From an uncultured Serinicoccus sp. (lineage in GTDB: Bacteria > Actinomycetota > Actinomycetes > Actinomycetales > Dermatophilaceae), in the NCBI RefSeq assembly GCF_947500995.1, contig NZ_CANMUA010000011.1, forward strand, positions 1 through 64,000: a stretch of DNA of 64,000 nt, written 5' to 3'. Made by a program: the position numbers and the translations under genes. Position 1 is the stretch's first letter. Every line of letters starts with the position of its first letter. Below the pieces are notes generated by a model, which was given only the letters and a program-made list of their open reading frames with translations, searched no databases and was not told the origin of the DNA. This document shows positions 2,539 to 26,817 of this stretch, piece by piece.

Positions 2539-2562
2539 CAGGACCGCCGATCCGTCGTTGCC

Positions 2563-2860: not shown

Positions 2861-2895
2861 TGAGTCCCTGGGTAGTGGTGGTCCGCTTTAGGTGG
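2861..2895 (+). promoter_or_regulatory. Island motif copy 1 (TGAGTCCC-N15-CGCTTTAGG)
   Basis: TGAGTCCC at 2861-2868, exactly 15 bp, then CGCTTTAGGTGG from 2884. It ends about 40 bp before the start codon of the gene at 2936, as a -35/-10 promoter pair would. It is one of five copies with identical spacing on the same strand of the island. Confidence 0.65.
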
Positions 2896-2935
2896 TGTCC
2901 GGAGGATCTTTGGAGATCGAGGAAGGCGCATTGTT

Positions 2936-3325: not shown

Positions 3326-3460
3326 GGGTGGCGGTTGTCGGAGACCGTGCCTGCGCTAACTCCTCCCACTCGGCATCGGGCGCGCGCACGCTGGCGATGG
3401 CCAGGGTTGCGGGTCGACCTCGTAGAGGTTGCCGGAGTCGATCAGCTCCAGCCGGCGCCG

Positions 3461-3481
3461 CTAAGCCTCGATCCACCGATG
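3461..3481. repeat. IS left end: target duplication CTAAG and inverted repeat
   Basis: CTAAG (3461-3465) is followed by CCTCGATCCACCGATG (3466-3481), which matches the inverted right end at 15 of 16 bases. IS1380-family ends typically begin with CCT, as here. Confidence 0.85.
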
Positions 3482-8066: not shown

Positions 8067-8440
8067 AGGCTCGTCAAGGAGCGCCCGCTGGGTGTCAGGG
8101 TATCGAGGTCCTGCGACAGGGGAGAGAACCAGGTCGGCGCGGCGGGCCGCGGACTGGTGATCGGCCGGGGGTGCCTTTGAGCACCCTGGCTGCTGGTTGG
8201 TCTCAGCGTGTCGAGCCGGACCAGCACCTCCTCGGATCGGTCAACGGCGCGGCGCGGACCGCCTGTGAGCAAATGAGGGTGCACCGCGACCCACCCTGTA
8301 GCCCCGCTGGGCCAACGCTCCGGCTGGTCCTACCTCACTTCGCTGATCGGGCTGCGGGGCTCAGCGGCCGCTGGGTCGTTCTCGTGGACGCCGGAGCGGA
8401 CCGGCGGGTGCCGCCATGGGCGCCCTAATCCCAGTTCCTC
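8067..8440. other. Gap between drmC and the nuclease gene
   Basis: 374 bp with no gene I can support. GGGTGC (8169-8174), a CTTTGA loop and GCACCC (8181-8186) form a 6-bp stem without a T-run. It may contain a promoter for the nuclease-methyltransferase pair, which would let the pair be expressed separately from the drm genes. Confidence 0.4.
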
Positions 8441-11036: not shown

Positions 11037-14000
11037 CAGCGCGACTCCTTCGTGAGGTCCGGGCGTGGGGCAGCGCTGTTTGTGGAGCCGGGCGGCGAAG
11101 GATGCGCACGCTCCTCTTCGTCGACGAGCTGGCCGGTTAGTCGTAGGAATGCCTCGCGGCTGTGAATCCAGGTGGCGAACTCGCCAGGCTCGTCGATGTC
11201 GCGGAAGTTCGCCAGCGGCTGGTTGTGGAATAGTGCTGTCGTCAGCTTCTCGCGTGCGGGGATGCTAAGGGCCTTAGATTCGGTGTCGTCCCACCGTGCC
11301 AGCGCGCGCGTGGCCAGCTCGGCCTCCATGCCGGCGTCGTTGACTCCCGTGACCGGGGTGGCGTAGCACCGCTGGAGTCGGTCGCGCAGCCGCTGGTCGA
11401 TCGCGCCTCGGTTGGTGTTCCACCAGCGTTGGAAGTGCTTGGCTTGGCGGACGCCCTCCACCGGAGCGTGGAGGCCGTCCTCGCGGGCGAGGTCGTGCAG
11501 CAGTGCCAACGCGATGCCGGGCAGCGTGCGGTCCGCGACGAAGAACGCGTACTTGTTCACCGGCACCGGTGTGACCATCTGGTCGAGGAAGGTGTGGTAG
11601 CTCGGGAAGTTGCTGAACAGGGACCGTTCCCGGCGCGAGAACGTGTCGTAGACGGTGACGACCAGCCCCGCGTGGGTGCGTCCCGACCTGGCGGTTACCT
11701 GGATGTAGTCCGCGGCTGTGGTGGGCATGCCGGCCATCACCAGCATGTTCAGCCTGTCCAGGTCGACGCCGTGGCTTACCACGGAGGTGCCGACCAGCGC
11801 CCGGAGCCTGGACCCACGGTCAGTACTGAGCGTGTCGTCCTGGACGCGGCCGATGGCCGCCGCCAGTTCGGGGATCGGAACCTGGCCAGTGAGCACGACT
11901 TGGTCCAACGGTCCGTGCCCCTCGTTGTCAAGGGCGTCGGAAAGCAGCCCCAGCTCCTCGTCGAGTTTAGCTCCGTGCGCCTTGCTGTTCACGTATCCAA
12001 GAGCGACTTCGTAGTTGAACAGCAGGTCTGCGACGTCTTCCCTGCTGGGCGGCTGCTCCCAGAGACCCGGGGCGATGCCGAGGTCGCCGAGAGGGTCGGC
12101 AGAGTCCTCGAGTTCGGTGATCGCTCGAAGCAGCTCCGCATGGATGATGGCCGCGACGTCGTCCTTCCGCCGGTAGTGGGGCAGGACCCCGACGAACGTG
12201 CGCCGCACGTCAGGTGTGGTCTGGATGTAGAAGCTGCGGCTCCGTTCGAAGCCGCGCGAGGGGAACGCTCGGGGGATGCGTCCGTAGACCTGGCGCAGCT
12301 GGTCCTCGAACTGTTCGATGGTGGCGCTGGCCGCCAGCACCTTCGACGGGAGGCCCGACGGGCCGCCGCGCTGCAGCTCGGCGATGAGGCCCTCGTAGTG
12401 GCCGCTGAAGGCGCCAAGCTCTTCCTTGAGCAGATGCATCTCGTCTTGGACCGTCAGGGCAGGCACCGGATCCTTGACAGGGGGAACCGCCAGGTAGTGG
12501 GTTCCCCGCTTCGGGGGTGGGCACTGCTCCGGCCCCACCGCGCAGGTGCCGGCCGTGGGGACGCTGAAGTACCCGTGCTCCGAGCACCGAAAGCGGGGGC
12601 CACGGCTGAACGCGGTGAACTCGGGGAACCAGCTGTAGCCGGTCAGCTTGTCCACCGTGGAGATCACGATGCTCGGCAACGCGCGGTAGACCTCCTCGTC
12701 GGTGATGTGCAGTGGCAGGTCGCGGCCGCAGCCGCTGGCCCGGCACCGGTGCACCACCCGCACTCCGGGCTCGTCGTAGTCGAGTTCGACCTGCTCCTGG
12801 CCGCAGTACGGGCACTTGGTGACGATGCGGTCGTCCTCGTGGGTTGTGGCGAACTCGCCTGCGCGGGCCAGCCGCACCTCTGGTTCACGGCCGCGCCACC
12901 ACGCCGACGGGTAATCTCCCAGCCGGTTCGGGGTTCCGCCGCTGCCGACCAGGTAGCCCAGCGCGAAGGGGTCAGCGTCCGGGTCCGCGATGTGCTTCTC
13001 GCCTCGCAGGTCCTCAGCCACGACGAGCACGCGCAGCATCCGGAACACCTGCTGGACCGAAAGCATCCGCAGAGGGAAGCGAAGCCAAGTGGTGACTCCG
13101 GCGTTCTTGCCGCGGAGCCGGTCGTAGAACAAGGCGGTGACAATGAGCCCGAGGTACGCCTCGGTCTTGCCACCGCCTGCCGGGAACCAGAGGACGTCGA
13201 CATGGTCGAGTTCGCGCCGGTACTCGGGGTCGTCCTTCTCCCTGGCGACGAGCGCGGGGAGGTGGGTGACGATGTAGACCAGCTGGAACAGCCGCCAGGT
13301 GGAGAACGGTTTCCCCGCGTTGGCGCGCGCGAAGGTTTCGTTCGCCAGCTGAAATGCCTGGGCGAGTCGGGGGTCCTCGCGTAGCGCTCGTCGACCGAGC
13401 TTGAATCGGCGGAACTCGTCGCAGAACTGGGCGAGGTCTCGAGCGGCTTCGGCGTGGTGGGGCTGCCCCACCGCGGCGGCGACGAATCGCTCGAACTCGC
13501 CTTCGTAGTCCTCCATCGCCACCTGGATGCTGGACAGGATGGCGCTGGGGTCTGCGGCCAGCTGGTCCCATCGAGGAGCGGCGACATGGTCGTCGCGTGG
13601 CTCGATGACGGACTGAATGTGAGTGGGCAGGGTCTCGGTCCGCACGCCGTCGTTCGGCGTAGCGACCGCGACGCAGCCGGTACCGTGCCCGATCACGTCG
13701 GCTAGGTCAGCGAGTTGGTAGTCGTCGGGTGCCAGATCGAACCGTTGGGGCAGGATCGGAGTGGCCGCCGTGGGGTGGACCGTGAACTGGCAGTCGTAGG
13801 CCGTCAGGTCTTGCTGTTGCCGACCCTCGATGCGTGTCATGTTGCGCAGTGCCACGGTGACGAGGTACTCGTCGGCGCCCAAAGGTTGCGCAAACGCGGT
13901 GAGCTCCAGGTCGAGGTAGGAAGTCGGCTTCCAGTCCCTATCGAGGACCTCCTCGATGGCCGCCTGGAAGGCCGCTTCGTCAGCGAGTGCGGTGCGCGGG

Positions 14001-14815
14001 AGCTCGTTGCGCTTCGTACGAAGCGGCCGCATCGCGAGGGGGCTGGCGTAGTGCGAATCGACGACCTCGCGCACCAACTGGTCCATCTGGCTCTCCAACT
14101 CCACGACCGCACCGTCGAGGGGGACCTGGATTCGGGCCGAGGGAACCTTGACGTCCTGGCGGCGCCAGGCACCCAGAAGACGGGTCTTTCGTTCACGCTT
14201 CGGACGCTTGGTGGCGGGGGCGGCTCCGTCTTCACCGCCGGTCGGCTCGGTTGATGGTGGGTCGCCGCTCGGCGGGTCTGCGGCTGAGGTCGCTGCCTCC
14301 GATGACGTGTTGGAGCCCGAAATTGCGGTGTCGACCCCGGTGTCGGTCGTGGCGTCAGGTCCAGCCGTGAGGTCGGTCTCGGCGGCACCGAGGTAGGTGC
14401 GCTGCTCGTCTAGGGTGGCGATTTCCTCGAGGTACAGGGCGAAGGCCAGGTCGATGTCGAGCTCGATGGCCTCTCTTCCCGCCGCGCGCACCCGGAAGTT
14501 GAGTCCGAGTGCGGGGACGTCGCCGGTCTGGGCCGCGTCCTGTTCGGCGGTTTCACCGCCGCTCTCGGGGCCAGCCTCTTCCGCCGCGGTGTCTCCATTC
14601 TTCGCGACCGGCGGGGGCTGAACCCAGATGGGCTCCAGCACTCCGAGCAGTACGTTCGCGCGCGGCTCCCACGGCGGGCTGTGCCGGATGTCGGTGCGGT
14701 CGGCTAGTCGTAGGGCCAGCCGATCGATGAGCCAGTCGACGACACCCGCCTCGCGGCGGTTGCTAATGGACGCGTTCATGGGGGCGGACGGTGCGCGTCG
14801 TGCGGCTCCAAGCAA
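11036..14815 (-). CDS. drmA: DISARM helicase DrmA
   Basis: About 1259 aa from TTG at 14815. Superfamily 2 motifs appear in order: Walker A FPAGGGKTEAYLG (~541), DExH in TVQDEMHLLKEELG (~788), SAT in LAASATIEQF (~830), GTSVVSHGVDLDRLN (~1010) and QVTARSGRTHAG (~1038). Between I and II lies a zinc ribbon (CPYCGQEQ, CRASGCGRDL). A Pro/Ser/Glu-rich, probably disordered insert occupies ~130-220. The start choice rests on GAGGAGAT seven bases upstream and a 20-bp gap after drmE; ATG at 14779 is the alternative, and longer starts would overlap drmE. DrmA is the DNA-translocating core of DISARM. Confidence 0.9.
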   Translation of the reverse strand: MLGAARRAPSAPMNASISNRREAGVVDWLIDRLALRLADRTDIRHSPPWEPRANVLLGVLEPIWVQPPPVAKNGDTAAEEAGPESGGETAEQDAAQTGDVPALGLNFRVRAAGREAIELDIDLAFALYLEEIATLDEQRTYLGAAETDLTAGPDATTDTGVDTAISGSNTSSEAATSAADPPSGDPPSTEPTGGEDGAAPATKRPKRERKTRLLGAWRRQDVKVPSARIQVPLDGAVVELESQMDQLVREVVDSHYASPLAMRPLRTKRNELPRTALADEAAFQAAIEEVLDRDWKPTSYLDLELTAFAQPLGADEYLVTVALRNMTRIEGRQQQDLTAYDCQFTVHPTAATPILPQRFDLAPDDYQLADLADVIGHGTGCVAVATPNDGVRTETLPTHIQSVIEPRDDHVAAPRWDQLAADPSAILSSIQVAMEDYEGEFERFVAAAVGQPHHAEAARDLAQFCDEFRRFKLGRRALREDPRLAQAFQLANETFARANAGKPFSTWRLFQLVYIVTHLPALVAREKDDPEYRRELDHVDVLWFPAGGGKTEAYLGLIVTALFYDRLRGKNAGVTTWLRFPLRMLSVQQVFRMLRVLVVAEDLRGEKHIADPDADPFALGYLVGSGGTPNRLGDYPSAWWRGREPEVRLARAGEFATTHEDDRIVTKCPYCGQEQVELDYDEPGVRVVHRCRASGCGRDLPLHITDEEVYRALPSIVISTVDKLTGYSWFPEFTAFSRGPRFRCSEHGYFSVPTAGTCAVGPEQCPPPKRGTHYLAVPPVKDPVPALTVQDEMHLLKEELGAFSGHYEGLIAELQRGGPSGLPSKVLAASATIEQFEDQLRQVYGRIPRAFPSRGFERSRSFYIQTTPDVRRTFVGVLPHYRRKDDVAAIIHAELLRAITELEDSADPLGDLGIAPGLWEQPPSREDVADLLFNYEVALGYVNSKAHGAKLDEELGLLSDALDNEGHGPLDQVVLTGQVPIPELAAAIGRVQDDTLSTDRGSRLRALVGTSVVSHGVDLDRLNMLVMAGMPTTAADYIQVTARSGRTHAGLVVTVYDTFSRRERSLFSNFPSYHTFLDQMVTPVPVNKYAFFVADRTLPGIALALLHDLAREDGLHAPVEGVRQAKHFQRWWNTNRGAIDQRLRDRLQRCYATPVTGVNDAGMEAELATRALARWDDTESKALSIPAREKLTTALFHNQPLANFRDIDEPGEFATWIHSREAFLRLTGQLVDEEERAHPSPPGSTNSAAPRPDLTKESR

Positions 14816-14820
14816 CGAAG

Positions 14821-14828
14821 ATCTCCTC
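14821..14828 (-). promoter_or_regulatory. Ribosome binding site that sets the drmA start
   Basis: GAGGAGAT on the minus strand, seven bases before TTG at 14815. No comparable site precedes the ATG at 14779 or the longer in-frame starts that run into drmE. Confidence 0.6.
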
Positions 14829-14835
14829 AGGTTGT

Positions 14836-17268
14836 TCAGCACTCGATGGGGAGCAGCTTGCGCAGTTGGCTGGCCGGCACGCTGCGTGGTCCGCCGACGG
14901 AACGGATCTGGCGCAGCTCGAACTCCTCGAGCACCTCTGCAGGGTCGATGCCACCACACAGCTGCGACAATTTCCGCAGGTTCTCGCCAGATCGGCCGGT
15001 TGCCACCTCCGCGATGGCCCCGGAGAGGACGCGACCGAGGTCACGGTGCAGTCGGCGCAGCTCTGTCGCGATGACGCCGATGCGTTCCCAGGTGCGGTCC
15101 AGGGTGAGGTCGTCACGTTTCGTCAGCCACGCGACGCGTCGGATGTCGTAGACGTCGTCCGGTGCGATCACCCGCCCCTCGGCCCAATTCTTGCAGGTCT
15201 GTGCGGCTTGGACTTCGCTGCCCCGGGTGCGGAGTGCTCGGGCGACGGCCTCCCACGATCCGCACTGGTCGTAGAGCGCCCAGGTCGCCTTGCGGAACCG
15301 CTGCAGCACCATGGTCACGGCGGCCACGTCCGCGTCGCGGTGCGCGGCTTGGAGCAGTCGGCCGTACAGCTCCTCACGTGTCTCCCCGCGTGGGATGAGC
15401 AGTGTCGTTCCCGCGGTCAGCCCGGACACGGGGGCCGAGCTGTACCTGCTACCGACCAGGACCTCGGCGGTGCCGTCGGCCGGAAGCCAGTACTGGGTGT
15501 CCCCTGGTTCCAAGGTGAGTGGCCTGGCGAGCGCCGAGCGCGCCCCGGCGGGCGTCCGGGCATCGGTGCCAGGGTCCTCCTCGCCCCGGTCGACCTTGTC
15601 GAGGGCGGAGGTGAAGGCCGCGAACATGCGCTCCAGGTCGAACGCGGGCAGCGGCGTCACCTCGTCGTCCTCGCCACGGTTATCGACTGTGACGGGCCCG
15701 TAGACGGTCCGCGGTCCCGGTACATGGGGGCTGGGTGGGCAGTCGAGATTCAGCTCCGCGGCCGCCTCCTTGAGTGTCGCCTGCCACTCGGTGTCGAGGC
15801 CGAGCAGCACCCGGTCGGCCCAGTGCTTTTCGTCTGGGTCGACCACGAGCACGTGCTCTGTACCTTCCCCGCCGAGCAGACAGGCGCGCCGCCACGGTGG
15901 GGGAACTCCGAGATGGATCTCGACGGTGGGCTGCACCGCCCATGGCAACCGCTCGCTGTACGAGGCCACCCTCAACGTCGGAGCGTGAGTGTCGCTGCTC
16001 AGGAGCGACTCCAGTCCCGGCTCGACCTCGAGAAGGTCATGGGTGAGCGCCCGGGCAGCGGATCTGGTCTGTGTTCTCACGACCAGCAGGCGACCGGGTC
16101 GGTGCGCCCGCGCCCAGGCAAGCACCGCGCGGAGCATCTCGAACCGGGGGTTGTACTCCTCCAGCAAGTCAGCGAACCCGAGCACGTCGCGCCGCAGGTC
16201 CGGCCACAGTGTCTCTCTGAACCCGCTCCACTCCTTGGGGAGGTCGCCGTCCCGGCGGTCCTGGAGGGTTCGTCGCAGGGTCGTGGTGCTGACCCCGCGA
16301 AGCTCTTGGGCGGCATGAAGATCTGCGGTGGCAAGGCTGCTCCAAGTGCCTGTGAGGACATTCACCAGTTGCACCGCTTCGGCGACCCGGGGTGGGAACG
16401 GGAGGTGGGTGCGTCGCGCGGCGGCGATGCCGCTCAGGCAGCGGCGCCGCAGCCGGGTGAGCGCCGGTGCCAGGTATTCCGCAAGCGCGACGGGGCGGCG
16501 AGGTATGCACAGCAGAGCGTTCGTCGAGAGCGGGCCACCGTCTGGTGGGCGGCCGAGCTCCTGACCAACGTCGTGTCGCAGCCCTGGGGTCCAGCCCCAG
16601 CGTAGCCATCGATCGGGATTGTCTAGGGCCGCCGGCCAGGGTTCGCCGATCGTGCTGAGCACCAGGACGCGACGGGCATGGTGCTGAGCGGCCCAGGTGA
16701 GTGCGGCGTCGAGGGTGTCGGGATTACGGAAGCTGGTGCGATCTATGATGACCAGCCCGGGGCGGACCTGGGGAAGCGTTGGCCAGCCGAGCGAGGTGTT
16801 GAGGTAGAGCAGTCCGTCACCCCAAGCGCGGGCGGGGCTGATCGTGCCGCGAAGATCAGTCACCGTGCCGTCGGCACGGACGCGTTGGGCTCGCAGAGCT
16901 GTTGACAGGTTCTCCGCCCCGATCTTCAGGCGTCGAAGCCGGTCGGTGAGGTTCACGTTCAGTCCCACGACCAATAGTGGCCCGTCGAACCCCTGGCCGT
17001 GGAACTGGCCGCGTAGCCGCGCTCCCAGGCGGTTGAGCTGCAGCAGCGCACCAAGCGCCACGGCAACGTCGTGACGTCCCTGCGGCAGCGCCAGGACAAC
17101 GTCTCGCTCGGTCTGCGCCAGGACGTAGCGGATCAGGTTCAGCGTCGCTTCATCGAGGGGACCGAGGTCTACCGATGCGCCACCGTCAGTAAACCGGAGG
17201 CGTCGTAGGCGCTCCAACAGGTCCGCGGGGTCAGGGACCGCGGGCACCAGAGCGTCCAGATATGGCAC
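14836..17268 (-). CDS. drmE: DISARM class 2 protein DrmE
   Basis: 810 aa from GTG at 17268, with AGGGGG five bases upstream. It starts with a helicase-like alpha/beta region without a proper Walker A (RDVVLALPQGRHDVAVALGA, ~55-75; LVIIDRTS, ~170), and a second Rossmann-like part (GRLLVVRTQTRSAARAL, ~400). The C-terminal ~200 residues are helical with a W..G repeat pattern (AQTCKNWAEGRVIAPDDVYD). Size and position just before drmA fit DrmE, the marker of class 2 DISARM, whose biochemical role is not settled. The call depends heavily on synteny; a profile search would confirm it. Confidence 0.75.
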   Translation of the reverse strand: MPYLDALVPAVPDPADLLERLRRLRFTDGGASVDLGPLDEATLNLIRYVLAQTERDVVLALPQGRHDVAVALGALLQLNRLGARLRGQFHGQGFDGPLLVVGLNVNLTDRLRRLKIGAENLSTALRAQRVRADGTVTDLRGTISPARAWGDGLLYLNTSLGWPTLPQVRPGLVIIDRTSFRNPDTLDAALTWAAQHHARRVLVLSTIGEPWPAALDNPDRWLRWGWTPGLRHDVGQELGRPPDGGPLSTNALLCIPRRPVALAEYLAPALTRLRRRCLSGIAAARRTHLPFPPRVAEAVQLVNVLTGTWSSLATADLHAAQELRGVSTTTLRRTLQDRRDGDLPKEWSGFRETLWPDLRRDVLGFADLLEEYNPRFEMLRAVLAWARAHRPGRLLVVRTQTRSAARALTHDLLEVEPGLESLLSSDTHAPTLRVASYSERLPWAVQPTVEIHLGVPPPWRRACLLGGEGTEHVLVVDPDEKHWADRVLLGLDTEWQATLKEAAAELNLDCPPSPHVPGPRTVYGPVTVDNRGEDDEVTPLPAFDLERMFAAFTSALDKVDRGEEDPGTDARTPAGARSALARPLTLEPGDTQYWLPADGTAEVLVGSRYSSAPVSGLTAGTTLLIPRGETREELYGRLLQAAHRDADVAAVTMVLQRFRKATWALYDQCGSWEAVARALRTRGSEVQAAQTCKNWAEGRVIAPDDVYDIRRVAWLTKRDDLTLDRTWERIGVIATELRRLHRDLGRVLSGAIAEVATGRSGENLRKLSQLCGGIDPAEVLEEFELRQIRSVGGPRSVPASQLRKLLPIEC

Positions 17269-17304
17269 CTGAGCCCCCTGTCGCCGTCGATTCCACGTGT
17301 TGGT

Positions 17305-17316
17305 TCACAATAGTGA
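17305..17316. promoter_or_regulatory. Small dyad upstream of drmE
   Basis: TCACAATAGTGA is a 4+4+4 dyad about 37 bp before the drmE start codon, in a comparatively AT-rich patch. It could be part of the defence promoter or an operator. The evidence is weak. Confidence 0.3.
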
Positions 17317-17444
17317 CGGTCCCCGACACTCCGGCGACATCAGGGTGGTTCCCTCGGCGAAAGCCTTGAGTGCGGCGTGCCACCAGAGGGCTCGAGCTGC
17401 GGATGCCCACGGTTGTCCACGGCGGACTGCCAGCAGTCCCCTGC

Positions 17445-17720
17445 TAGACTCGGCAAGCCCGCTGGTCTTGCGACGTTGAATGGAACCTGCCGCGCGCCGC
17501 CGACGCACCTAGTACGCACCCATTCCAAGACCATGGTGGTCTGGCGCTGCCCTGACTGCGGCCATGAGTGGCGGAGTCGGATCGCCACTCGGGTGGCGAA
17601 ACATACCGGCTGTCCCAGCTGCACCGCCGCCGCGCGCCGGGTCCGCCGTCGCGGTCGACGCAGTAACCCGCGACCAAGTTGGCGCAGCAGCCGGGGCCAC
17701 AGGATGGCAGGTAGCACAAG
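17445..17720 (+). pseudogene. Remnant of a DUF4379-like zinc-ribbon protein
   Basis: One frame reads HSKTMVVWRCPDCGHEWRSR and then HTGCPSC, the CxxC...CxxC treble-clef ribbon pattern of DUF4379 proteins. The EWN segment that usually comes just upstream appears in a different frame (CDVEWNLPRAADAP), so a frameshift separates them. No good start or matching downstream repeats are present. I read it as a decayed fragment, or a short ribbon domain left by recombination at the edge of the defence operon. Confidence 0.4.
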
Positions 17721-17913
17721 CGTTCGATACCTTGAAGTCATGGCGGGTGGCATGTACGGGCGGCGCGGTTCAGGGGTTCCCCTGCGAGACCGCGGATCCG
17801 ACATACCCCCGTCCCACGCTGCTCTGTCGCTCCCCTCCGTCCCGCCGGCGCGTTCACGGACACGGCATGCGTGGGCACGTCTGCGGCCGGGTGCTGCGGA
17901 GGTCGAAGCACTG

Positions 17914-18030
17914 GTGATCAGCTGGCAGAACACCCATGAGGGGTGGGCGGCCTGGGTGGTGTGTGCGGTCGAGGAGGACCAGGTGGTGACTGTGCGTCTG
18001 CCTGCTTCGCAGCTGCGTCCGGCCATCTGA
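17914..18030 (+). CDS. Possible 38-aa island protein
   Basis: GTG at 17914 with GGAGGT about 10 bases upstream. The product has ISWQNTHEGWAAWVV and ends VTVRLPASQLRPAI. Short proteins with a W-W-V-V core and an LPA..LRP end occur in actinobacterial mobile elements, which is the main support. The frame is open further upstream into the zinc-ribbon remnant, so it may instead be the tail of a longer broken gene. Confidence 0.35.
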   Translation: MISWQNTHEGWAAWVVCAVEEDQVVTVRLPASQLRPAI

Positions 18031-18050
18031 GGGAACGCCTCTGCTTCGAG

Positions 18051-18085
18051 TGAGTCCCTGAGCCCGCCTGCGCCGCTTGAGGGGG
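18051..18085 (+). promoter_or_regulatory. Island motif copy 2
   Basis: TGAGTCCC at 18051-18058, 15 bp, then CGCTTGAGGGGG from 18074. It ends 48 bp before the start codon at 18133, which has its own AGGAGG site. Confidence 0.65.
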
Positions 18086-18132
18086 TAGGGAGTCTGGCCC
18101 GTTGCCGGACGCCCCTGATCCAGGAGGTGGCC

Positions 18133-18304
18133 ATGATCTGCGAGCCGTGCCGGCCTGTTCATTCGCCGGGCGGACTGCGTCGACTCCAAGGCCGGGCGGG
18201 AATACCCCTGGCGGCACTGCGTCTGCCAGCACCGCCGCCGCCTCCAGGTGGGCGTCCGCGACGTGGTCGAGGACGAGCCGGAGGGAGCGTCCGCGGATGA
18301 GTGA
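18133..18304 (+). pseudogene. Frameshifted small Cys/His-rich island gene
   Basis: A strong AGGAGG site leads to ATG at 18133, which encodes MICEP and then loses the plausible frame. One frame over, from 18146, the sequence reads RAGLFIRRADC, then YPWRHCVCQHRRR, and ends VEDEPEGASADE with a stop at 18302-18304 overlapping the next start. Joined, the two halves give a ~57-aa MIC..C...C...CxCxH protein like small zinc-binding island proteins. A +1 shift (or a 2-base loss) at about 18144-18152 explains the break; a sequencing error is the alternative. Confidence 0.5.
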
Positions 18305-18646
18305 GGGTCAGAATCTCAGGCTCGGTCAGGATGACCGGGCCGAAGGGTGGGGTCGGTCCTTGCATGCCCTGGCCGAGTCCCGACGCGTCCTGGTAGGGGC
18401 GCGTGAAGGGGTCCAGGCGATGCAGGACGAGCTCGCTCGCGCGTCCCGGCTGCTGGAGGACGTCGACTGGGCGCAGCGCGGCGGCCAGTGGCCCCCGGCC
18501 CAGGACCGGCGGGCCTTGCTGCGCGCCTTCGCCGACCAGTGCGAGACCGCGGCCGCCCAAGGCGAGGACACACAGAAACGGCTAGCTTCCGCGCAACGGT
18601 TTCTCACCGCAGGGCGACAGGGGGCCGAGGCGATCGACCCAAGGAC

Positions 18647-19268
18647 CGAGCAGGAGCAGGAGGACCCTCGGCGCAGCCAGCCTGCCGTGTAGAGTCCCGG
18701 CTCGACACGGCCGTCGGGTGTGGAGCCCGGCTCCACCGGGGTGTCCGGGTCCGCGGCGAAGCCGATGGCGGTCACGAGGTCGTCGGCCGGGAGGACCACC
18801 TCGCCGTCCGGACCCTCGAAGACGACCGCCTCGAGGCTCTCGGTACCCTGGATGTCGAGGGGGGACAGTCCGAACCACCACTCGATGCGGACACGCTCCT
18901 GCCGCGGGTGCACATCGGCGAGGGAGCGGACGGCCTCGACGCGAGCATCCTTGCCGTCCGCAGGGAGCGCTTCGACACCGTGCACGATGTGTCGCACACC
19001 CCGCAGGGTCGCCAGCTCCCGCACCATCACGGGGTCGAACCTGGCCGAGGCGGGGTCACTGCGACCTACCAGGTGCAGCGTGCGGACGCTGCCGCACAGT
19101 CGCTCCCGGGCCTCGTCGGCCACGTCGCTGTCCTCGAGGTCGTCGGGGTGCCGAGCCAGCATGCGTGCGACATCCATGGCCACGTTGCCGTGGCCCACGA
19201 CCACCACGGTGGGGCCGAGACGGGGGGCCTCGTCGTCGGCACCTCGCCGTCGCCGTACGTCGAGCAGG
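18647..19268. repeat. 8-bp direct repeats CGAGCAGG flanking the insert
   Basis: CGAGCAGG at 18647-18654 and 19261-19268. The repeats could be a target duplication or the trace of microhomology-mediated capture; the insert ends are not inverted repeats of each other. Confidence 0.7.
18665..19260 (-). pseudogene. Internal fragment of a ferredoxin-NADP reductase gene (FprA/adrenodoxin reductase type)
   Basis: The minus strand encodes the NADP-binding middle of an FprA-like flavoprotein: VVVVGHGNVAMDVARMLARH (the GxGxxA loop), LVGRSDPASARFDPVMVREL, IEWWFGLSPLDIQG, DDLVTAIGFAADPDTPVEP and EPGLYTAGWLRRG. It lacks the N-terminal FAD-binding third, and stops where PSGTIGTN-type residues would follow. 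So about 190 residues of a normally ~450-residue enzyme are present, without start or end. It lies antisense inside the island gene and is not expected to make protein. Confidence 0.8.
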
Positions 19269-19622
19269 CGCGTCTCCGGCATGTCGCGACGGGCCTGCAC
19301 AGGTCGCTGGAGGAGGCACGGGTTGAGCTGGAACGCACCCAGGCTGCACTACTCCGGTCAGCTGCCGCAGCGCGTGAATCCGCCCCGACCAGCGGGGCGG
19401 TCGAGACCGTTCACACCGACCTGCTGAACCGCACGCTGCGCGCGGCGTCCACGGAAGGACACCGAGTTGATGACGTGGTCTCCCGGGTCTCGAGCCAGAC
19501 CCAGCACCGTCTGGGGGCGATAGATCCCGTGGGACAGGCAGCACGCGAACGGATAAGGGCCCACCGGGACCTGCCGGGTGGTGGAGCCGGCCCACCCGCG
19601 CCAGGGGTCGATCGGTGAGAGG

Positions 19623-19657
19623 TGAGACCCAGGGGCCTCCTCGGCCGCTTTGGTAAG
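19623..19657 (+). promoter_or_regulatory. Island motif copy 3 (variant)
   Basis: TGAGACCC at 19623-19630, 15 bp, then CGCTTTGGTAAG from 19646. It ends 48 bp before the start codon at 19705. Confidence 0.6.
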
Positions 19658-19704
19658 TAGGCGGGTTCACGTAAGAGCCCGGCGCGAGAGAAGGGACAAC
19701 TGCC

Positions 19705-19860
19705 ATGACACAACCGAGCACCTATGGGCTCGTCACCGCCGCCGAGGAGCTGCGCGAGGCCCAGGCGGCCACCGACAGGGTCGGCGACCTGCTGGACCAG
19801 GCCACCGCGCAGCTCGATGACCTCTTGGCCGACCCGGAGGTGACCGGTTCCCATGAGTGA
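19705..19860 (+). CDS. 51-aa island protein
   Basis: ATG at 19705 with GAGAAGGGA about 9 bp upstream. The product is one amphipathic acidic helix (ELREAQAATDRVGDLLDQAT) with a short tail. The stop overlaps the start of the next gene by 8 bp, so they are co-translated. It holds the same position before a helical gene as the broken ORF at 18133, but shares no clear sequence with it. Function unknown. Confidence 0.65.
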   Translation: MTQPSTYGLVTAAEELREAQAATDRVGDLLDQATAQLDDLLADPEVTGSHE

Positions 19861-20557
19861 GATCACCACAGACACCAGGAGTGACCTCGCCGACACCCGC
19901 TGGATCCTGGCTGAGACCCACTGTGCCCTGCAGGATGCCCGCCAGCAGCATTTGCAGATGGGCAAGAGCATGAATGATGCACGGTCCTGGCTGTCCCTGG
20001 TCGAGGGGGTCCAGCAGGACCGGGTCAAGAGCATGGACCGTGAGAGCCAGGGTGAGGCACTTCGCTCGTTCGCGGGCGCCTGCGAGGAGGCCGGCGAGGC
20101 CGGCCTGGGTGTGGACCGTCGGATCTCACGCGCGGTGGCCAACCTGAAGGCCGCGGTGGTGATGGTCGACGGTCTGCACCAGGGAAACACCCGCGAGCAG
20201 ATCGATACTGGCCGGCTGCGTCGCCAGCTCATCTCGCTGCAGGAAGACCTGGAGACGACCCGACCGGTGATCCAGCGCGCCAGCGAACGGCTGGGGGCCG
20301 AAGCAGACCGCGCCCGCCAGTCTCTGCCGCGCCCCGGCCGGGACCGGACCGGGCCCGATCCCACCTTGGTCTCCGGTTCTCTCCTGGCCGCCTACTCAGA
20401 CGGTCGGTACGTCGACCAGGAGCTCGACCGCGCGCAGGGCGTGGCCATCCAGGCGTCGCGGGACGTCGACGTCATTGCGCAGGCAGCCCGGGAACGGATG
20501 CGCACCCACCGAGAACTCTCCCGCGAGTCCACCCCCGGGCCATCGATGCAGCGATGA
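19853..20557 (+). CDS. Helical island protein, intact paralogue of the split gene
   Basis: 234 aa, almost entirely helical with likely coiled-coil parts (LRRQLISLQEDLETTRPVIQ). No signal peptide, membrane segment or catalytic motif is visible. It matches the split gene at 18297-19618 over both halves, so the two are tandem duplicates. It begins within the 51-aa gene and its stop overlaps the next start (ATGA, 20554-20557). I do not recognise the family; the context only says it is an island operon gene under motif copy 3. Confidence 0.75.
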   Translation: MSEITTDTRSDLADTRWILAETHCALQDARQQHLQMGKSMNDARSWLSLVEGVQQDRVKSMDRESQGEALRSFAGACEEAGEAGLGVDRRISRAVANLKAAVVMVDGLHQGNTREQIDTGRLRRQLISLQEDLETTRPVIQRASERLGAEADRARQSLPRPGRDRTGPDPTLVSGSLLAAYSDGRYVDQELDRAQGVAIQASRDVDVIAQAARERMRTHRELSRESTPGPSMQR

Positions 20558-21141
20558 CCGGCATGCCCCTCGTAGCCTCCCCGATTGCAGGGTCTCCACC
20601 TGACGGCCTGGTTGAACGACTGGAGGAGCGACTGAACGGTCTGCACGTTGCGGTGTCGACCTGCCAGGACGAGCTGGAACGCTGGGGAGCGCATGCCGTG
20701 CGGGAGCAGGTGGCCGCCCAGGTGGTCGTCGACCAGGCCGGCCTGTTGCGGCACCAGGTGCGCGACGCAGCCTCGGACGCCGCCTGGCTGCTGGCCCGGG
20801 TGCGCAATCTCGAACGGCGTCCCGGGGTCGCGCGGATCGCCATCTCTCCGGTGACGCTGGCCGTGGCAACAGCGGCGTCCTCGCTGCACGCGACGGTTCA
20901 TGCGATGAGCCCGGCGTCCTCAGGCCTGTGCCGCGGTGAGCAGTTTATGGCGACGGTGGACACCTCCCTGGGCGCGTCACGTCGCTTCCTGCGCGTCGCC
21001 TGCAGCGCCCTCCTGGACGCGACACGACTCCTGCGCACCACCCAGCCAGGGGAGGGCGGTCCCGCTTCGACCGGTGACCACCGACCACACCTGCGCCTGG
21101 TGCCTGACACCGGCGCAAGCATCGAAGGAGATCCACGATGA
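20554..21141 (+). CDS. Helical island protein of unknown function
   Basis: 195 aa, helical. The segment LNGLHVAVSTCQDELERWGA is followed by a long helix (QVVVDQAGLLRHQVRDAASD) and a hydrophobic part around TLAVATAASSLHATVHAM that is too polar to be a certain membrane span. The start is coupled to the upstream gene and the stop to the next (ATGA at 21138-21141). No known domain recognised. Confidence 0.7.
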   Translation: MTGMPLVASPIAGSPPDGLVERLEERLNGLHVAVSTCQDELERWGAHAVREQVAAQVVVDQAGLLRHQVRDAASDAAWLLARVRNLERRPGVARIAISPVTLAVATAASSLHATVHAMSPASSGLCRGEQFMATVDTSLGASRRFLRVACSALLDATRLLRTTQPGEGGPASTGDHRPHLRLVPDTGASIEGDPR

Positions 21142-21364
21142 AGACTCCCTCGACGGACCACCGCTCGGCTCACGCCGCAAGAGCCGCGCTGGAGGCCCAG
21201 CGTGCCGCGCGGATGCAGGACACCGCACGCGCCGAGACCTCGAGAACGCCCGGCGGCTCCAGGAGGCGCAGGCGCGCCAGAAACAGGAAGAGCTGGTCAG
21301 GGGGAGCGCCGGCCGAGAACGGCGTGACGCAGGGAACAACACTCTCAGCGGCCCGTCGTACTGA
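21138..21364 (+). pseudogene. Frameshifted short coiled-coil gene at the operon end
   Basis: GAAGGAG seven bases upstream and the coupled ATG at 21138 start a charged helix (AALEAQRAARMQDTARAE). From about 21240 the helical pattern continues in another frame (DLENARRLQEAQARQKQEEL) and ends ...NNTLSGPSY-stop at 21362-21364. The original frame runs on antisense through the next gene with non-protein-like composition. A one-base deletion (or two-base insertion) near 21230-21240 explains this. The combined product would be ~75 aa. Function unknown. Confidence 0.5.
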
Positions 21365-22274
21365 GCACGGCACTCGTCACCGGCGGACCGTCCCCGACGA
21401 CCGGGGGCCCGGGCTGCAGCTGCGGATGCCGCAGCCGCACCGCGCGGTCCCGGGTGTTGTCGTCGGTGAAGGTCGCCGTCAGCAGGTCGGCGTAGACCCC
21501 GGCCAGGTCAGCCTGCAGGAGGTAGTGGTCACCGACCTGGGCGCGGGCGCGGTCCCAGGACCGGATGGACCACCAGGTGGCGAGCACCACAGCCATGACG
21601 ACGGTCGAGACGTACATGGCAGGGTCCTCGGTGGCTCCCAGCCAGATCCCCACGCCGGCGTTGATGACCAGGCACGCCAGCATCACCCGGTGGCTCAGGA
21701 AGGCCGCAGCGACGCCCCACATGATGGCGATCCAGGTGATCCAGACCGTCCACGGGGCCAGCAGGACCATGATGGCTGGGTCGTGACGGGTCAGCCCGGA
21801 GCGCATCACCCCGACCTCGTGCGTGATGACCGCCGCCGCCTGTTGTGGTCGCAGCTGCCCTGACCAGAGCGCGTCGATCAAACCCCTGCTCACCACCACG
21901 GTGCGCCGACCGAGCGCGGTGACGCCCACCTGCTGGCCCGGACCGACCAGCAGCTCGAGCCGCTGCGGGGGGATGCCGTGTCGCAGCAGGATCTGGGCCA
22001 CCGGCGCCAACGTGTGCCGCTGGTGGAGCCGGGGTGCGCGTGCGCGCAGGACGAGGCGGGCCAGCCATCTCTCGCCGGGCCCGGTGTCGGCGGCCGCGGC
22101 CACCAGGAGCAGGACCACCAGCGTCAGGGCCGCGGGACCGTACCGCCCCAGCTGGCGGACGGAGTCGTACCAGCCCAGCGCCAGCTCACCGACGACCAAC
22201 CACATCGGGGCACTCATGAGCATCGGCACGACCAGTGCGCGCGCCCGTGCCCGCCGCGCTCTGCCCAGTGTCAT
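21345..22274 (-). CDS. M48-like membrane metallopeptidase homologue with degraded zinc site
   Basis: 309 aa from ATG at 22274 with GGAGG seven bases upstream. Two hydrophobic segments lie near the N-terminus (~15-35, ~50-68) and two more around 165-215. Between them is the M48 pattern GLIDALWSGQLRPQQAAAVI followed by THEVGVMRSG, where HExxH is expected. The second His is replaced by Val, so zinc binding is doubtful. It faces the helical operon and overlaps its frameshifted last gene by 20 bp. It may be a pseudo-peptidase or M56/BlaR-like sensor relative. The resemblance to M48 is clear; activity is not. Confidence 0.65.
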   Translation of the reverse strand: MTLGRARRARARALVVPMLMSAPMWLVVGELALGWYDSVRQLGRYGPAALTLVVLLLVAAAADTGPGERWLARLVLRARAPRLHQRHTLAPVAQILLRHGIPPQRLELLVGPGQQVGVTALGRRTVVVSRGLIDALWSGQLRPQQAAAVITHEVGVMRSGLTRHDPAIMVLLAPWTVWITWIAIMWGVAAAFLSHRVMLACLVINAGVGIWLGATEDPAMYVSTVVMAVVLATWWSIRSWDRARAQVGDHYLLQADLAGVYADLLTATFTDDNTRDRAVRLRHPQLQPGPPVVGDGPPVTSAVLSTTGR

Positions 22275-22330
22275 CGCGCCACCTCCCAAGTGACCCACTG
22301 CCGCTTTACCGCCAGCTGATTTCGAATCGG

Positions 22331-22365
22331 TGAGTCCCAGGCCTTTGGTCCCCCGCTTTAGGGGG
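22331..22365 (+). promoter_or_regulatory. Island motif copy 4
   Basis: TGAGTCCC at 22331-22338, 15 bp, then CGCTTTAGGGGG from 22354. The next well-supported start (22538, with AAGGAG) lies 172 bp further on, a longer leader than at the other copies. An in-frame ATG at 22367 directly follows the motif but has no binding site. Confidence 0.65.
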
Positions 22366-22537
22366 CATGAACAGCAGCCTGCACGTCGACACCGACAAGC
22401 CGCAGGACTTGTCCACAGGCCGGCCCTTCCGGCCTCTCCTCCCCAGATGGGGCAGTACTGGGCTCGACCCCGTCCCTGAACGCGTAGCCATGAACCGGAC
22501 GCCGTCCGGAACGGTACAACCGAAGGAGATCGACCAC

Positions 22538-22879
22538 ATGAGCGACACGACACCCGACGCCGCCCGGGTCCTGGTGCACATGCACCAGCTGCTGTGGCAG
22601 GCAGGCACCGAGGCCGATCGGCGGGCCCACCAGAGCCGCGACCTGGACACGGTGGCGCTGGCGAACAACCTGACGTATGCCCGGGACCAGGTGTTCCACC
22701 TGGTCCCGGAGTCTTACCGAGATGCGCTCCTGGACCGGCCAGGCGCCGCCGGAGCCGATCCCGTCGAACTGGCCCGTCGTGCCGAGGAGCTGAGCCGGAC
22801 AGCACCGGTCCACCACTTTCCCCCCGGCATCGTGTCGGTCGTCGACCTCCTCATCGAGACGGTGGGGGAGTTCTCATGA
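22538..22879 (+). CDS. Small helical island protein
   Basis: 113 aa. AAGGAG lies about nine bases before ATG 22538. Mostly helical (TPDAARVLVHMHQLLWQAGT; LARRAEELSRTAPVHHFPPG), no membrane segment or catalytic motif. The stop overlaps the start of the 489-aa gene (ATGA, 22876-22879), so the two are made together. Function unknown. Confidence 0.7.
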   Translation: MSDTTPDAARVLVHMHQLLWQAGTEADRRAHQSRDLDTVALANNLTYARDQVFHLVPESYRDALLDRPGAAGADPVELARRAEELSRTAPVHHFPPGIVSVVDLLIETVGEFS

Positions 22880-24345
22880 ACCGGCGACGCCAGCCCACGA
22901 TCTACCCGCCCAGCGCCGGAGAGCTGATGGACCGCGCCAACGTCCTGGCCCGCGACCTGCTGTACGAGGCACCCCACCGTGACGGTCGCGCGATGCTCCG
23001 GGCCTGGGGCGAGGTCGTCGAAGGGGCCAGCGAGCTGTGGCACCAGCTCCCGCAACGCTCGGACCTGCCCGGCAGCGGCAGGCAGGTCATCGACCAGCTC
23101 GAGCGATCGGCCAGAACGCTGCACCGCTCGGCCGGTGGTGGGATCGACGTCGACCCCACCCTGCAGGAGATCGGCCAGATGTTCACCGAGGCTGCATGCC
23201 TGATCACCTGCAGCGGCGTCACCGAGCGCCGCGAGCCGAACCGGTGGACCGATGCCCAGCTGCGCGACTCCTTCGCCGCGCGCGTCAACATCATGCACAC
23301 CCTCTACGTCGCTTCCCACGCCGTCTCCGTAGCCCTTGCCAAGACCGCGGCGGAGGAGAAGGGCGACCCCCGTCTGCGGGTGCACCGGGTCACCGCTGAG
23401 GAACTACGCCACCAGGTCCTCAGCATCGAACAGATCACCCACTCCTACATCAACGGCCACTACCCGCAGGCGTTTCACGGAAGGCACCGCGAGCCGCCGG
23501 ACGACACCAGGATCCCCGGCGCCATCGCCAGCTGGGACGTCCAGGCCCAACGTGCGCTGACCCGAGAACCGACGACCCACGCGCTGACGCGGGTGGCTGG
23601 GGCAGCGTTCAGCGCATCTGTGCACGTGCACGCGCTGTGGCGGGCAGTCGTCCAGACCGGCCACGTAGCCCCCCGGACGTTCGACAACGAGATCAGTCCC
23701 GCGCTGGAAACCATGATCGAGAAGTGGGGCGAGGCACATACGTACTTCCAGCAGCTCACCCACCCGCACGACTCGAGCCCTCTCGCGCTGAGCAAGGCAG
23801 GGTGGGAACTGGTGGACGCCATGCGAGAGGTCACCGCGACTAGGCGCATGCCCGCCTCGGTCGAGGACATCCGGGAACGTGTGGACGGTGAATCTCTGGT
23901 GAGATCGCTGCACCGGTTCCACGCCACCATGGCCGGTGTGGCAGGGGTTTTTCACGAGGCCGCGCGCAAGGCGCCCCTGCTGGTCGACGCCAGGGCGGCC
24001 AACGACATCGCACGAACGGCCTCCGAGGACAACGGTAGAGGGGTCCCACCGCCACAAGAGGCAACCGTTGCCCCGCGCGACGTCCTCCACAAACGAGCCA
24101 TCCCGATCCCAGAAGGCATTCGGGGCCCTGCCGAGGAAGCCGGCGGCCAGGCAGCCCTGGCGACGCGAGTAGCGCTGCGCTCCACCCTGGCAGCCAGCGA
24201 CGGCAAGCTGGTTGCCATGAGCATCCCCTCCAGCTGGACGCGCGCGGTCGGGACCGCCGGCCGGCTGTCCAGCAGCCAGAGGCATGAACGCCTCGAGGCG
24301 GCCGGAGGCACGGTGCATGCCATCAACAGTCAGGTGACCCGGTGA
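22876..24345 (+). CDS. 489-aa all-helical island protein of unknown function
   Basis: ATG at 22876 is coupled to the stop of the 113-aa gene. The protein is soluble and helical throughout, with no P-loop, nuclease or membrane motifs that I can see. Segments such as TDAQLRDSFAARVNIMHTLY and ATRVALRSTLAASDGKLVAM recall helical bundles. It is the largest cargo gene of the rightward part of the island and, with 22538, forms a two-gene operon under motif copy 4. The pairing could be structural, toxin/immunity or defence-related; nothing in the sequence decides. Confidence 0.75.
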   Translation: MNRRRQPTIYPPSAGELMDRANVLARDLLYEAPHRDGRAMLRAWGEVVEGASELWHQLPQRSDLPGSGRQVIDQLERSARTLHRSAGGGIDVDPTLQEIGQMFTEAACLITCSGVTERREPNRWTDAQLRDSFAARVNIMHTLYVASHAVSVALAKTAAEEKGDPRLRVHRVTAEELRHQVLSIEQITHSYINGHYPQAFHGRHREPPDDTRIPGAIASWDVQAQRALTREPTTHALTRVAGAAFSASVHVHALWRAVVQTGHVAPRTFDNEISPALETMIEKWGEAHTYFQQLTHPHDSSPLALSKAGWELVDAMREVTATRRMPASVEDIRERVDGESLVRSLHRFHATMAGVAGVFHEAARKAPLLVDARAANDIARTASEDNGRGVPPPQEATVAPRDVLHKRAIPIPEGIRGPAEEAGGQAALATRVALRSTLAASDGKLVAMSIPSSWTRAVGTAGRLSSSQRHERLEAAGGTVHAINSQVTR

Positions 24346-24496
24346 CGGATGAGGGTACATGAAGGCGGTGCCCCGACCTGTGGACAGCCGGCCCAAGCAG
24401 TGCCGGGACAGTCGATGATCAGTCAGGTGTATCTGTCCCCCCTTCCCGCGGCAGGACGACGGTGGGTAGCCCAAGCAGAACCGATTTGTCACCACC

Positions 24497-24531
24497 TGAG
24501 TCCCAGGCGCTGGTTCATCCGCTTTAGGGGG
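24497..24531 (+). promoter_or_regulatory. Island motif copy 5, upstream of the excisionase
   Basis: TGAGTCCC at 24497-24504, 15 bp, then CGCTTTAGGGGG from 24520. It ends about 43 bp before the excisionase start, so excision and cargo genes may share one control. Confidence 0.65.
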
Positions 24532-24574
24532 TAGGAGGCACAAGACGTGTCTGCCGGAGAGCACGAGGGAAGTG

Positions 24575-24862
24575 ATGACTGTGACTATTCAGCAGAGGTC
24601 GTGGTGGAACCCGCGGGGCCTTGCTGGCGCGCAACGGAACGGCGTAGCAGGGGCGGAGGAAGGACTGATCGCACCCGCGGAGATGATGTTTCTCACTGTC
24701 CAAGAGGTTGCCGACCTGCTTCGCGTCAGCCCCGGGACGGTCAGGGCGTGGGCAGCCAAGGGCGAGGGGCCGCCCTCGATCCGCTTCGGCAAGCAGATCC
24801 GGTACCGGCCTGAGAAGGTCGAGGAGTGGGTGCAGGAGCAGGAGCGTGCCCGTCGTGCTTGA
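24575..24862 (+). CDS. Excisionase (MerR/AlpA-like winged helix-turn-helix)
   Basis: 95 aa. Residues ~38-85 are a standard excisionase-type DNA-binding domain: FLTVQEVADLLRVSPGTVRA and IRFGKQIRYRPEKVEEWV. The ATG at 24575 follows GAGG by about six bases; a GTG directly before it is the alternative. The gene overlaps the integrase by 17 bp. It should bend the attachment site and direct the integrase to excision, and may also regulate the pair. Confidence 0.85.
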   Translation: MTVTIQQRSWWNPRGLAGAQRNGVAGAEEGLIAPAEMMFLTVQEVADLLRVSPGTVRAWAAKGEGPPSIRFGKQIRYRPEKVEEWVQEQERARRA

Positions 24863-25994
24863 CCGGCGAACCTCTCCACGCACTGGTCAGGTCACGTGGA
24901 GGGTTCGGTGGTGGGAGTCGACGCCCGGTGGAGGCCGAAAACAGCGGAGCCGATCGTTCAAGAGCCGTGCGGCGGCGCTGGAGTTCCAGCACCAACGTGA
25001 ACGAAAGCTGCGCCTGGGCGTCGAACACTCAGCCGGTCGCGTGCCGGTGTCCGAGGTCGCTGAGCGCTTTCTCTCTGGGCTTGTGGGCACCGTGGAATCC
25101 CGCACCGTGCAGGGGTATGCCCAGCACTGGCGCACTCACCTTGCCCCCGCGTTCGGCGCACGACCTCTCGAGCAGGTCACGTCTCCCATGGTCCAGGACT
25201 TCGTGTCGGCGCTGGCGCGCGAGCGGTCGCCAGCTACGACGAGACATGCGCACAGGGTGCTCAGCCTGATCTTGGATCAGGCGGTCGCCGAGCGGCGAAT
25301 CGCTGTGAACCCTGCGCACGGCGTGCGCCTGCCCAGCCTGCCTCAGTCACGCGGAGACCATGTGCTCACCGTCAACCAGGTCGAAGAGCTGGCCGGTGCT
25401 GTGCTGCACCACGGAACCCTCGTCCGCCTCGCCGCGTACTGCGGACTGCGATGGGGTGAGGTCGCTGCGCTCCAGGTCGGTGACGTGGACCTCAGCTCAC
25501 GTCGGCTTAGGGTCCAACGCGCCCAGGTTGAGGTCTCGGGGCGCGTTGAGGTCAAGCCGCCCAAGTCTCGGTATGGGCGCCGGCGCGTCCCGATCCCATT
25601 GCGCCTGCTTGACGACATGCGCGACGTGGTCGCAGGTCGTGCCGCAAGCGAACTGCTGTTCACCTCACCCGATGGTGGCCGGCTGCGGGCGTCCAACTGG
25701 AAGCGGTGGGTCGCGTGGTCGCAGGCCGTTGAGTCGGTCGGTGTGGACATCCGGTTTCACGACCTCCGGCACACTTGCGCAAGCCTCCTGATCCAGGCCG
25801 GCGCGACACCGGTGGAGGTGCAGCGCATCCTGGGGCACAGCACGCCGGCGACGACGCTCAACCTCTATACCCATCTCCTGCCGGACGCCCTCGACGGCGC
25901 GGCCGCACGGCTCGATGATTACCTGGGTGCGGAAGCTGTGGTGGCCAAGCTGGTGGCCAAGCCCCCGACTACGTTGCAAGACGGAGCACCATGA
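24846..25994 (+). CDS. int: Tyrosine integrase of the tRNA-Lys island
   Basis: 382 aa from GTG 24846, preceded by AGGAGC. An N-terminal arm-binding part (~1-50) is followed by a SAM-like core-binding domain (~60-140) and a catalytic domain (~165-365). Catalytic residues: Arg in GLRWGEVAAL (~200), Lys in the KPPKSRYGRRRVP loop, HDLRHTCASLL (~303-313), His in GHSTPATTLNLYTHL and Tyr ~339. The short acidic end is followed within 40 bp by tRNA-Lys, its likely target. It catalyses integration and, with the excisionase, excision. Confidence 0.93.
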   Translation: MPVVLDRRTSPRTGQVTWRVRWWESTPGGGRKQRSRSFKSRAAALEFQHQRERKLRLGVEHSAGRVPVSEVAERFLSGLVGTVESRTVQGYAQHWRTHLAPAFGARPLEQVTSPMVQDFVSALARERSPATTRHAHRVLSLILDQAVAERRIAVNPAHGVRLPSLPQSRGDHVLTVNQVEELAGAVLHHGTLVRLAAYCGLRWGEVAALQVGDVDLSSRRLRVQRAQVEVSGRVEVKPPKSRYGRRRVPIPLRLLDDMRDVVAGRAASELLFTSPDGGRLRASNWKRWVAWSQAVESVGVDIRFHDLRHTCASLLIQAGATPVEVQRILGHSTPATTLNLYTHLLPDALDGAAARLDDYLGAEAVVAKLVAKPPTTLQDGAP

Positions 25995-26034
25995 AAACCG
26001 GGTTGTGGCGCTGTGACCAGCAGTTATGCGGGAG

Positions 26035-26107
26035 TGGGCCCCGTGGGACTCGAACCCACAACCTACGGATTAAAAGTCCGCAGCTCTGCCAATTGAGCTA
26101 GAGGCCC
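26035..26107 (-). tRNA. tRNA-Lys (anticodon TTT)
   Basis: Reading the minus strand gives GGGCCTC/GGGGCCC acceptor arms, a D-arm, anticodon TTT within GGACTTTTAATCC, and the T-loop GGTTCGAGTCC. 73 nt, no encoded CCA. Its 3' end faces the integrase and is the probable attachment core. Confidence 0.95.
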
Positions 26108-26189
26108 GCAGCCGGTGAGAGGACCGGCCGCGACGTCCCAGGCTAGCCCCCGCTGCCTGCCTCCGGGGCCGGCCGCCCCGACGGGCGGC

Positions 26190-26795
26190 TCACCACAGCT
26201 TGTGCCACCACTTCGGCTCCTTCTCGCCAGGGTCGAGCGAGATGATCTCCACGCTGCTGAAGGCGCCGCTGTGGGCGATGGTGAGCCGCCAGCGACCGGG
26301 GTCCGAGACCCCCTCGTAGTCGCCGCTGAGGCTGCTGAACAGCGCGCTCCCACCCTGCACGTCGACCCCCACCCCCCGCGGGACGATGACCTTGCAGCTG
26401 GAGAAGATGTCGTTGAGGCGCAGCTCCACGACGCCCGAGGTGACCACCGCCTCGCGCAGGTCCAGCACCGTCTCCGAGAAGCCGCCGGACACGGTGAGGA
26501 CCTCGGGGACCTGCCAGCGCCCGATGCGGTGGGTCGAGCTGAAGAAGCTCGTGATGCGAGCCGGGGCGGGGGCCGGCGGGTCGGCAGGACGCCGTGCCAG
26601 CCCGGCCTGCTCGGAGGGGACGCCCGGTCGCCAGTCGGGGGAGTCCTCGGCGGCCGGTCCGCCGACGATCGTCACCGGGCGGTCGACGTCGTCCCCGGTG
26701 CCCGTGACGGGCGGCCCCGGCAGGGGCGGCACCCGCTCGTCACCCTCGGTGTGGTGCGGGTCCCTGGCCCCTCGCCCGTCTGCTCCGTCCGTCAT
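26190..26795 (-). CDS. LiaF-like cell-envelope stress domain protein
   Basis: 201 aa. The N-terminal ~85 residues are Pro/Gly/Asp-rich and disordered. Residues ~90-200 form the C-terminal LiaF-like beta domain (RIGRWQVPEVLTVSGGFSET, then LNDIFSSCKVIVPRGVGVDV), seen in envelope stress sensors where it senses or mimics membrane damage. No transmembrane segment is present, unlike full LiaF, so it is probably cytoplasmic. First chromosomal gene after the tRNA. Confidence 0.75.
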   Translation of the reverse strand: MTDGADGRGARDPHHTEGDERVPPLPGPPVTGTGDDVDRPVTIVGGPAAEDSPDWRPGVPSEQAGLARRPADPPAPAPARITSFFSSTHRIGRWQVPEVLTVSGGFSETVLDLREAVVTSGVVELRLNDIFSSCKVIVPRGVGVDVQGGSALFSSLSGDYEGVSDPGRWRLTIAHSGAFSSVEIISLDPGEKEPKWWHKLW

Positions 26796-26817
26796 GCCCC
26801 CACCGTAACCGGCCCGC

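Follow-up and report, generated by a model that had tools for sequence, protein, structure and literature searches.

Insertion of endogenous DNA at healed chromosome breaks has previously been described in the laboratory. In Streptomyces ambofaciens, five insertions of endogenous DNA, ranging from 30 bp to 18.8 kb, were reported at the sites where I-SceI breaks had healed, and microhomologies of 1-6 nt were present in half of the scars at the central site (PMC5869714, accessible text). In a more general report, small variable segments in bacterial genomes were attributed largely to illegitimate recombination, and dedicated end joining was called almost absent from prokaryotes apart from a few species (PMC2884548, accessible text).

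Here, we analysed a stretch of 64,000 nucleotides (the window) from an uncultured Serinicoccus sp., in which an island gene is interrupted by DNA of a flavoprotein gene lying in antisense orientation. As far as the accessible part of PMC5869714 goes, this case resembles the S. ambofaciens scars in that the organism is an actinobacterium with end-joining genes, the inserted DNA is found in the same genome and the overlaps at the joints, here within what chance gives, are short or absent. It differs from them in being natural rather than induced by I-SceI, in consisting of two permuted pieces of one gene and in showing no loss of target DNA. Like the segments discussed in the accessible text of PMC2884548, it is a short block by which related genomes differ, with no known mobile element involved; it differs in that the genome encodes Ku and LigD domains and that the donor was traced within it. 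The capture is ordinary in kind and cleanly documented, with a laboratory precedent in S. ambofaciens. A first-pass annotation, made from the window alone, had called such captures into an actinobacterial island unusual, which is too strong given the endogenous insertions at break scars published for S. ambofaciens (PMC5869714, accessible text). Natural captures resolved to the base, for which both the donor and empty sites are available, are useful: they suggest that events of the type induced in S. ambofaciens also scar natural genomes and can disrupt genes carried by mobile defence islands.

Empty sites and the boundaries of the inserted DNA

To define the insert we compared the window with related genomes lacking it. 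The search for empty sites covered 58 genomes, including the window's own genome (G000), and the gene was found without the insert in two congeneric genomes, G002 (locus L026) and G003 (locus L027). It has 240 codons in both, and both read GGAGGACCAGGCGCG across the insertion site. The coordinates of the insert derived from these two sites, together with those of the host gene and the donor, are given in Table 1; a 1-bp ambiguity applies to the edges of the insert (18666-19264 or 18667-19265). Compared with the two empty sites, nothing of the target was lost and 0-1 bp was duplicated. A target-site duplication of the transposase type is absent.

Table 1. Features of the interrupted island gene, the insert and its donor (window coordinates unless a contig of the same genome is named)
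Feature	Position	Strand	Description
Interrupted island gene, first part	18297..18692	+	Corresponds to the N-terminal part of the intact G002 protein (240 residues)
Left CGAGCAGG	18647..18654	+	Ordinary host bases; the left junction lies 11-12 bp further downstream and is not marked by this copy
Piece 1	18665..19234	-	570 bp, corresponding to donor codons 483-672, G000:C2:329818-330387
Inserted DNA	18666..19264	- (donor coding strand)	599 bp relative to the G002 and G003 empty sites
Piece 2	19235..19266	-	32 bp, corresponding to G000:C2:330838-330869 (same donor gene, flavodoxin part)
Right CGAGCAGG	19261..19268	+	Donor CGAGCA followed by host GG; junction coincidence
Interrupted island gene, second part	19265..19618	+	Residues 124-240 and stop; 93% identity to G002 residues 121-240
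Donor open reading frame	G000:C2:328372-331137 (L002 62-2830)		922 residues; P450, Pyr_redox_2 and flavodoxin matches

These boundaries differ from those first proposed (18655-19260, 606 bp), which had been placed at two copies of the direct repeat CGAGCAGG and read as a duplication of 8 bp or as microhomology of that length. In the part compared, a single CGAGCAGG is present at each empty site, upstream of the junction, which rules out both readings. The second copy in the window exists because the 32-bp donor stretch ends in CGAGCA and the next host bases are GG. In the whole window CGAGCAGG occurs 33 times, compared with a mean of 7 in dinucleotide shuffles, an excess perhaps due to codon usage. 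The case carries a warning: direct repeats recognised in one sequence may be a coincidence, and here comparison with empty sites shifted both junctions and abolished the supposed duplication.

The same comparison bears on the proposal that removal of the insert and one repeat would restore a gene of 235 codons matching the intact 234-codon paralogue at 19853. The arithmetic of the frame restoration holds, although the deletion assumed was the wrong one. The intact gene has 240 codons, and at approximately 29% identity between the paralogue and the uninterrupted G002 protein the agreement in length is a coincidence.

Two pieces of one donor gene

The presence of an uninterrupted gene in two congeners and of a full-length flavoprotein gene elsewhere in the same genome (G000:C2) bore out the earlier view that flavoprotein-gene DNA had been captured into the island gene. 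The donor, on another contig, encodes a single-chain fusion of a P450, an FprA-like reductase and a flavodoxin (flavodoxin match at residues 774-908). The earlier assignment of the insert to an FprA-type reductase gene is corrected by this, the enzyme not being a stand-alone reductase.

The insert is not a single fragment from the middle third of a gene, as had been proposed, but is composed of two stretches of the donor whose order is permuted; the second lies in the flavodoxin part. Piece 1 is identical to the donor at 565 of 570 positions (99.1%, five mismatches; E = 1.1e-295), and piece 2 at 32 of 32 (100%; E = 1.1e-8; within donor codons 823-833). Judged by these comparisons, a chance origin of both matches is excluded. 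The two pieces belong to a single donor gene, share their orientation and fall within about 1.05 kb of it; along the insert, donor positions descend through piece 1 and then jump back up to piece 2. The overlaps at the junctions are 2 bp (CC) between piece 1 and the host on the left, 0 bp between the pieces, and 2 bp (CA) between piece 2 and the host on the right. Random joins give an overlap of 2 or more in about 21% of cases, and the observed values, no more than expected by chance, are uninformative.

Comparison of window positions 8000-27000 with the own genome (best 40 of 586 candidates scored) returned the window itself, the two donor stretches, six matches around a tRNA-Lys gene and two weak short ones; no other capture was seen among them, though small pieces could escape such a search. 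With the same proviso for small pieces, none was seen for positions 1-8000 (best 40 of 398 candidates scored), where the matches were copies of the left end of the island on contigs C14 and C19 together with short weak ones.

A nearly full-length donor fusion occurs in two of the 31 genomes of the genus, namely the own genome and G022; G002 and G003 are therefore without it. In GTDB genome contigs the fusion was found at 21 loci, and its named relatives belong to Leucobacter, Agrococcus, Microbacterium, Arthrobacter and Labedella. The fusion resembles a self-contained redox chain and would merit biochemistry.

Source and age of the captured DNA

From the alignments, the insert duplicates DNA present at another place in the same cell or a closely related allele of another strain; the capture is real and probably recent. 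The differences between insert and resident donor were examined for hints of its source. All five lie at third codon positions (chance (1/3)^5 = 0.004) and four of the five are synonymous, against 27% expected of random changes; as a yardstick, 69 of the 127 differences between the donor and its G022 counterpart are at third positions. At donor codon 547 the insert has R and the resident gene S, and K or R is found in 22 of 22 orthologues. Parsimony assigned two differences to the resident branch, two to the insert branch and left one ambiguous, a weak polarisation that uses G022 as its one outgroup (77% identical over the stretch). The third-position pattern hints at differing functional alleles rather than at decay of a dead fragment. 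The confinement of all five differences to third positions, together with the conserved residue type kept by the insert, hints at capture from a functional allele.

It is possible, with somewhat less than an even likelihood, that the source of the insert was not the resident copy but another strain of the species, whose DNA could have arrived, for instance, when the island was transferred; either joining mechanism considered below could then have operated. Besides the synonymous third-position differences and the conserved residue type at codon 547, the mobility of the island is in line with such a source. The island in G000 is 91-95% identical to that in G002 or G003, compared with 79% and 80% at the one chromosomal locus compared, around Ku. 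Because island identity exceeds that at the Ku locus, these values suggest that the island has passed from lineage to lineage and that the insertion is later than the separation of the islands. On the other hand, a source in another strain is argued from just five differences, polarised by that single outgroup, and change in the resident gene after capture accounts for at least two of them.

Mechanism of capture

The simplest account, which we consider likely, is that two endogenous fragments of the donor gene were captured when a double-strand break was healed by illegitimate end joining. The break would have fallen between codons 123 and 124 of the host gene, and two fragments of the P450-reductase-flavodoxin gene would have been built in as its ends were joined; these fragments may have been debris that was ligated in, or copies made with a single switch backwards on the template. 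Evidence for end-joining capture comes from the empty sites, the two-piece permuted origin, the intact target (the overlaps of 0-2 bp being uninformative) and the genes for Ku, ligase and LigD. The last of these, comprising Ku, an open reading frame with ATP-dependent ligase domains and a LigD primase-polymerase, are located together on contig C1 near 640 kb. We infer that joining took the Ku/LigD route; nothing ties Ku to the event directly. LigD polymerases are known for short fill-in and not for the copying of hundreds of bases, so that the 570-bp piece fits fragment ligation or template switching at least as well. A feature of the insert also counts against end joining: according to the accessible text of PMC10932983, end-joining scars mostly lose a few bases, whereas zero target bases were lost here.

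The main rival to end joining is replicative template switching, which seems unlikely. A stalled fork or break end would have used the donor gene as template for 570 bp, switched back on it by about 1 kb, read a further 32 bp and then resumed on the target, with no need to ligate loose fragments. The common gene, orientation and neighbourhood of the two pieces would be expected of such a process, as would the short overlaps. However, if one degraded molecule supplied two fragments for ligation, these would share their orientation half the time; sequence alone thus gives template switching no preference and does not discriminate between the two mechanisms, and the target without loss speaks against template switching. 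Improbable, in our judgement, is a combined reading in which the insert is the footprint of template switching on one chromosomal template, with microhomology unneeded, during repair or transfer of the island, and has at the same time preserved the functional allele of another strain. If true, such inserts would record both break repair and allele history in actinobacteria carrying Ku and LigD.

An assembly artefact, with donor reads misjoined into the island contig, is very improbable. The assembly is a draft of 45 contigs; however, the insert differs at five sites from the sole other long copy found in the genome, which excludes reads of that copy, and three separate joins would be required.

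That a transposon or other mobile element brought the gene fragment is barely credible, even though the island has integrases and a DDE transposase lies about 14 kb away. The whole of the insert consists of donor gene sequence, the duplication amounts to at most 1 bp and there is no inverted repeat at both junctions, the nearest pair being of 10 nt (9/10 complementary) with its left arm 31 bp inside the insert. A transposon or insertion sequence was rejected on these grounds, and the earlier interpretation, a chromosomal gene fragment captured with no transposon involved, is supported. Capture of cDNA driven by an encoded enzyme of the PF00078 family was also rejected, with zero matches to the reverse transcriptase model RVT_1 in the own assembly.

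Equally hard to credit is the idea that the insert has been kept because read-through of the host gene on the plus strand would make antisense RNA against the mRNA of the P450 fusion: the near-perfect complementarity of about 570 nt and the orientation would suit it, while translation stops early in the insert, the insert was seen in one genome only, and a scan of both strands of 17900-19800 gave no sigma-70-type promoter pattern (a weak test for such an organism). The strand previously named for detection of antisense RNA, the minus strand, was the wrong one: it is the donor coding strand in the insert, so minus-strand RNA would be sense, and read-through from the host gene on the plus strand antisense, to the donor mRNA.

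State of the interrupted gene

The open reading frame of the first part now has 131 residues, consisting of 123 native codons (18297-18665) and eight derived from the insert, followed by TAG at 18690-18692. The second part is out of frame with the first in the present sequence, and both halves remain open. On its own branch the broken gene has accumulated 6 nonsynonymous and 17 synonymous substitutions (G003 branch, 9 and 17; G002 branch, 6 and 4). With both halves open and this ratio of substitutions, no long decay is visible, and most of the branch may predate the insert.

The intact protein (G002 orthologue) was modelled as four long helices at residues 3-60, 71-111, 118-161 and 174-224 (mean pLDDT 85.7), and the break falls six residues into the predicted third helix. 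According to this model the 131-residue stub would retain helices 1 and 2 and the start of helix 3, and loss of function is likely. For the intact orthologue, Pfam gave a single match below the cut-off, and neither PHROGs nor plasmid sequences gave any. A structure search with its model returned zero matches at E <= 0.001; designed helical bundles lead the listing and say nothing on function, and rows for pore-forming toxins were at the level expected by chance for long helices and are not a lead. The paralogue at 19853 had no match in Pfam, PADLOC or PHROGs and no close relative in viral_contigs. Members of this family (window 18297-20557 and related loci) have approximately 234-245 residues and four predicted helices, and paralogues adjoin each other on these islands.

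Distribution of the gene and organization of the island

With the intact protein as query (E <= 0.001), matches to the host gene were obtained in nine of the 186 genomes of the family surveyed, own genome included. It is a single open frame in G002 (100% identity), G003 (93%), G019 (59%) and G028 (53%), the last two matching from residue 11 on. It is split by the insert in G000, is decayed and contains stops in G015, and gave distant or partial matches in G030, G081 and G206.

An integrase gene (25188-25994) adjoins the tRNA-Lys gene (26034-26107), which probably served the island as an attachment site; in the sequence compared, the tRNA-Lys end had no convincing second copy. At the left, stretches of window 512-2737 have 94% identical copies on contigs C14 and C19 of the own genome, suggesting a second related element. 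A DISARM-like cassette occupies window 5122-17268, with genes for a methylase, DrmC, DrmB and DrmA (PADLOC) and for a protein with a C-terminal DrmE match in Pfam, for which PADLOC gave no match. This cassette adjoins a backbone module (17738-24242) that is common to G002 and, partly, G003. In G003, a type I restriction R subunit is encoded beside the backbone module, which suggests that the defence cargo of these islands is interchangeable.
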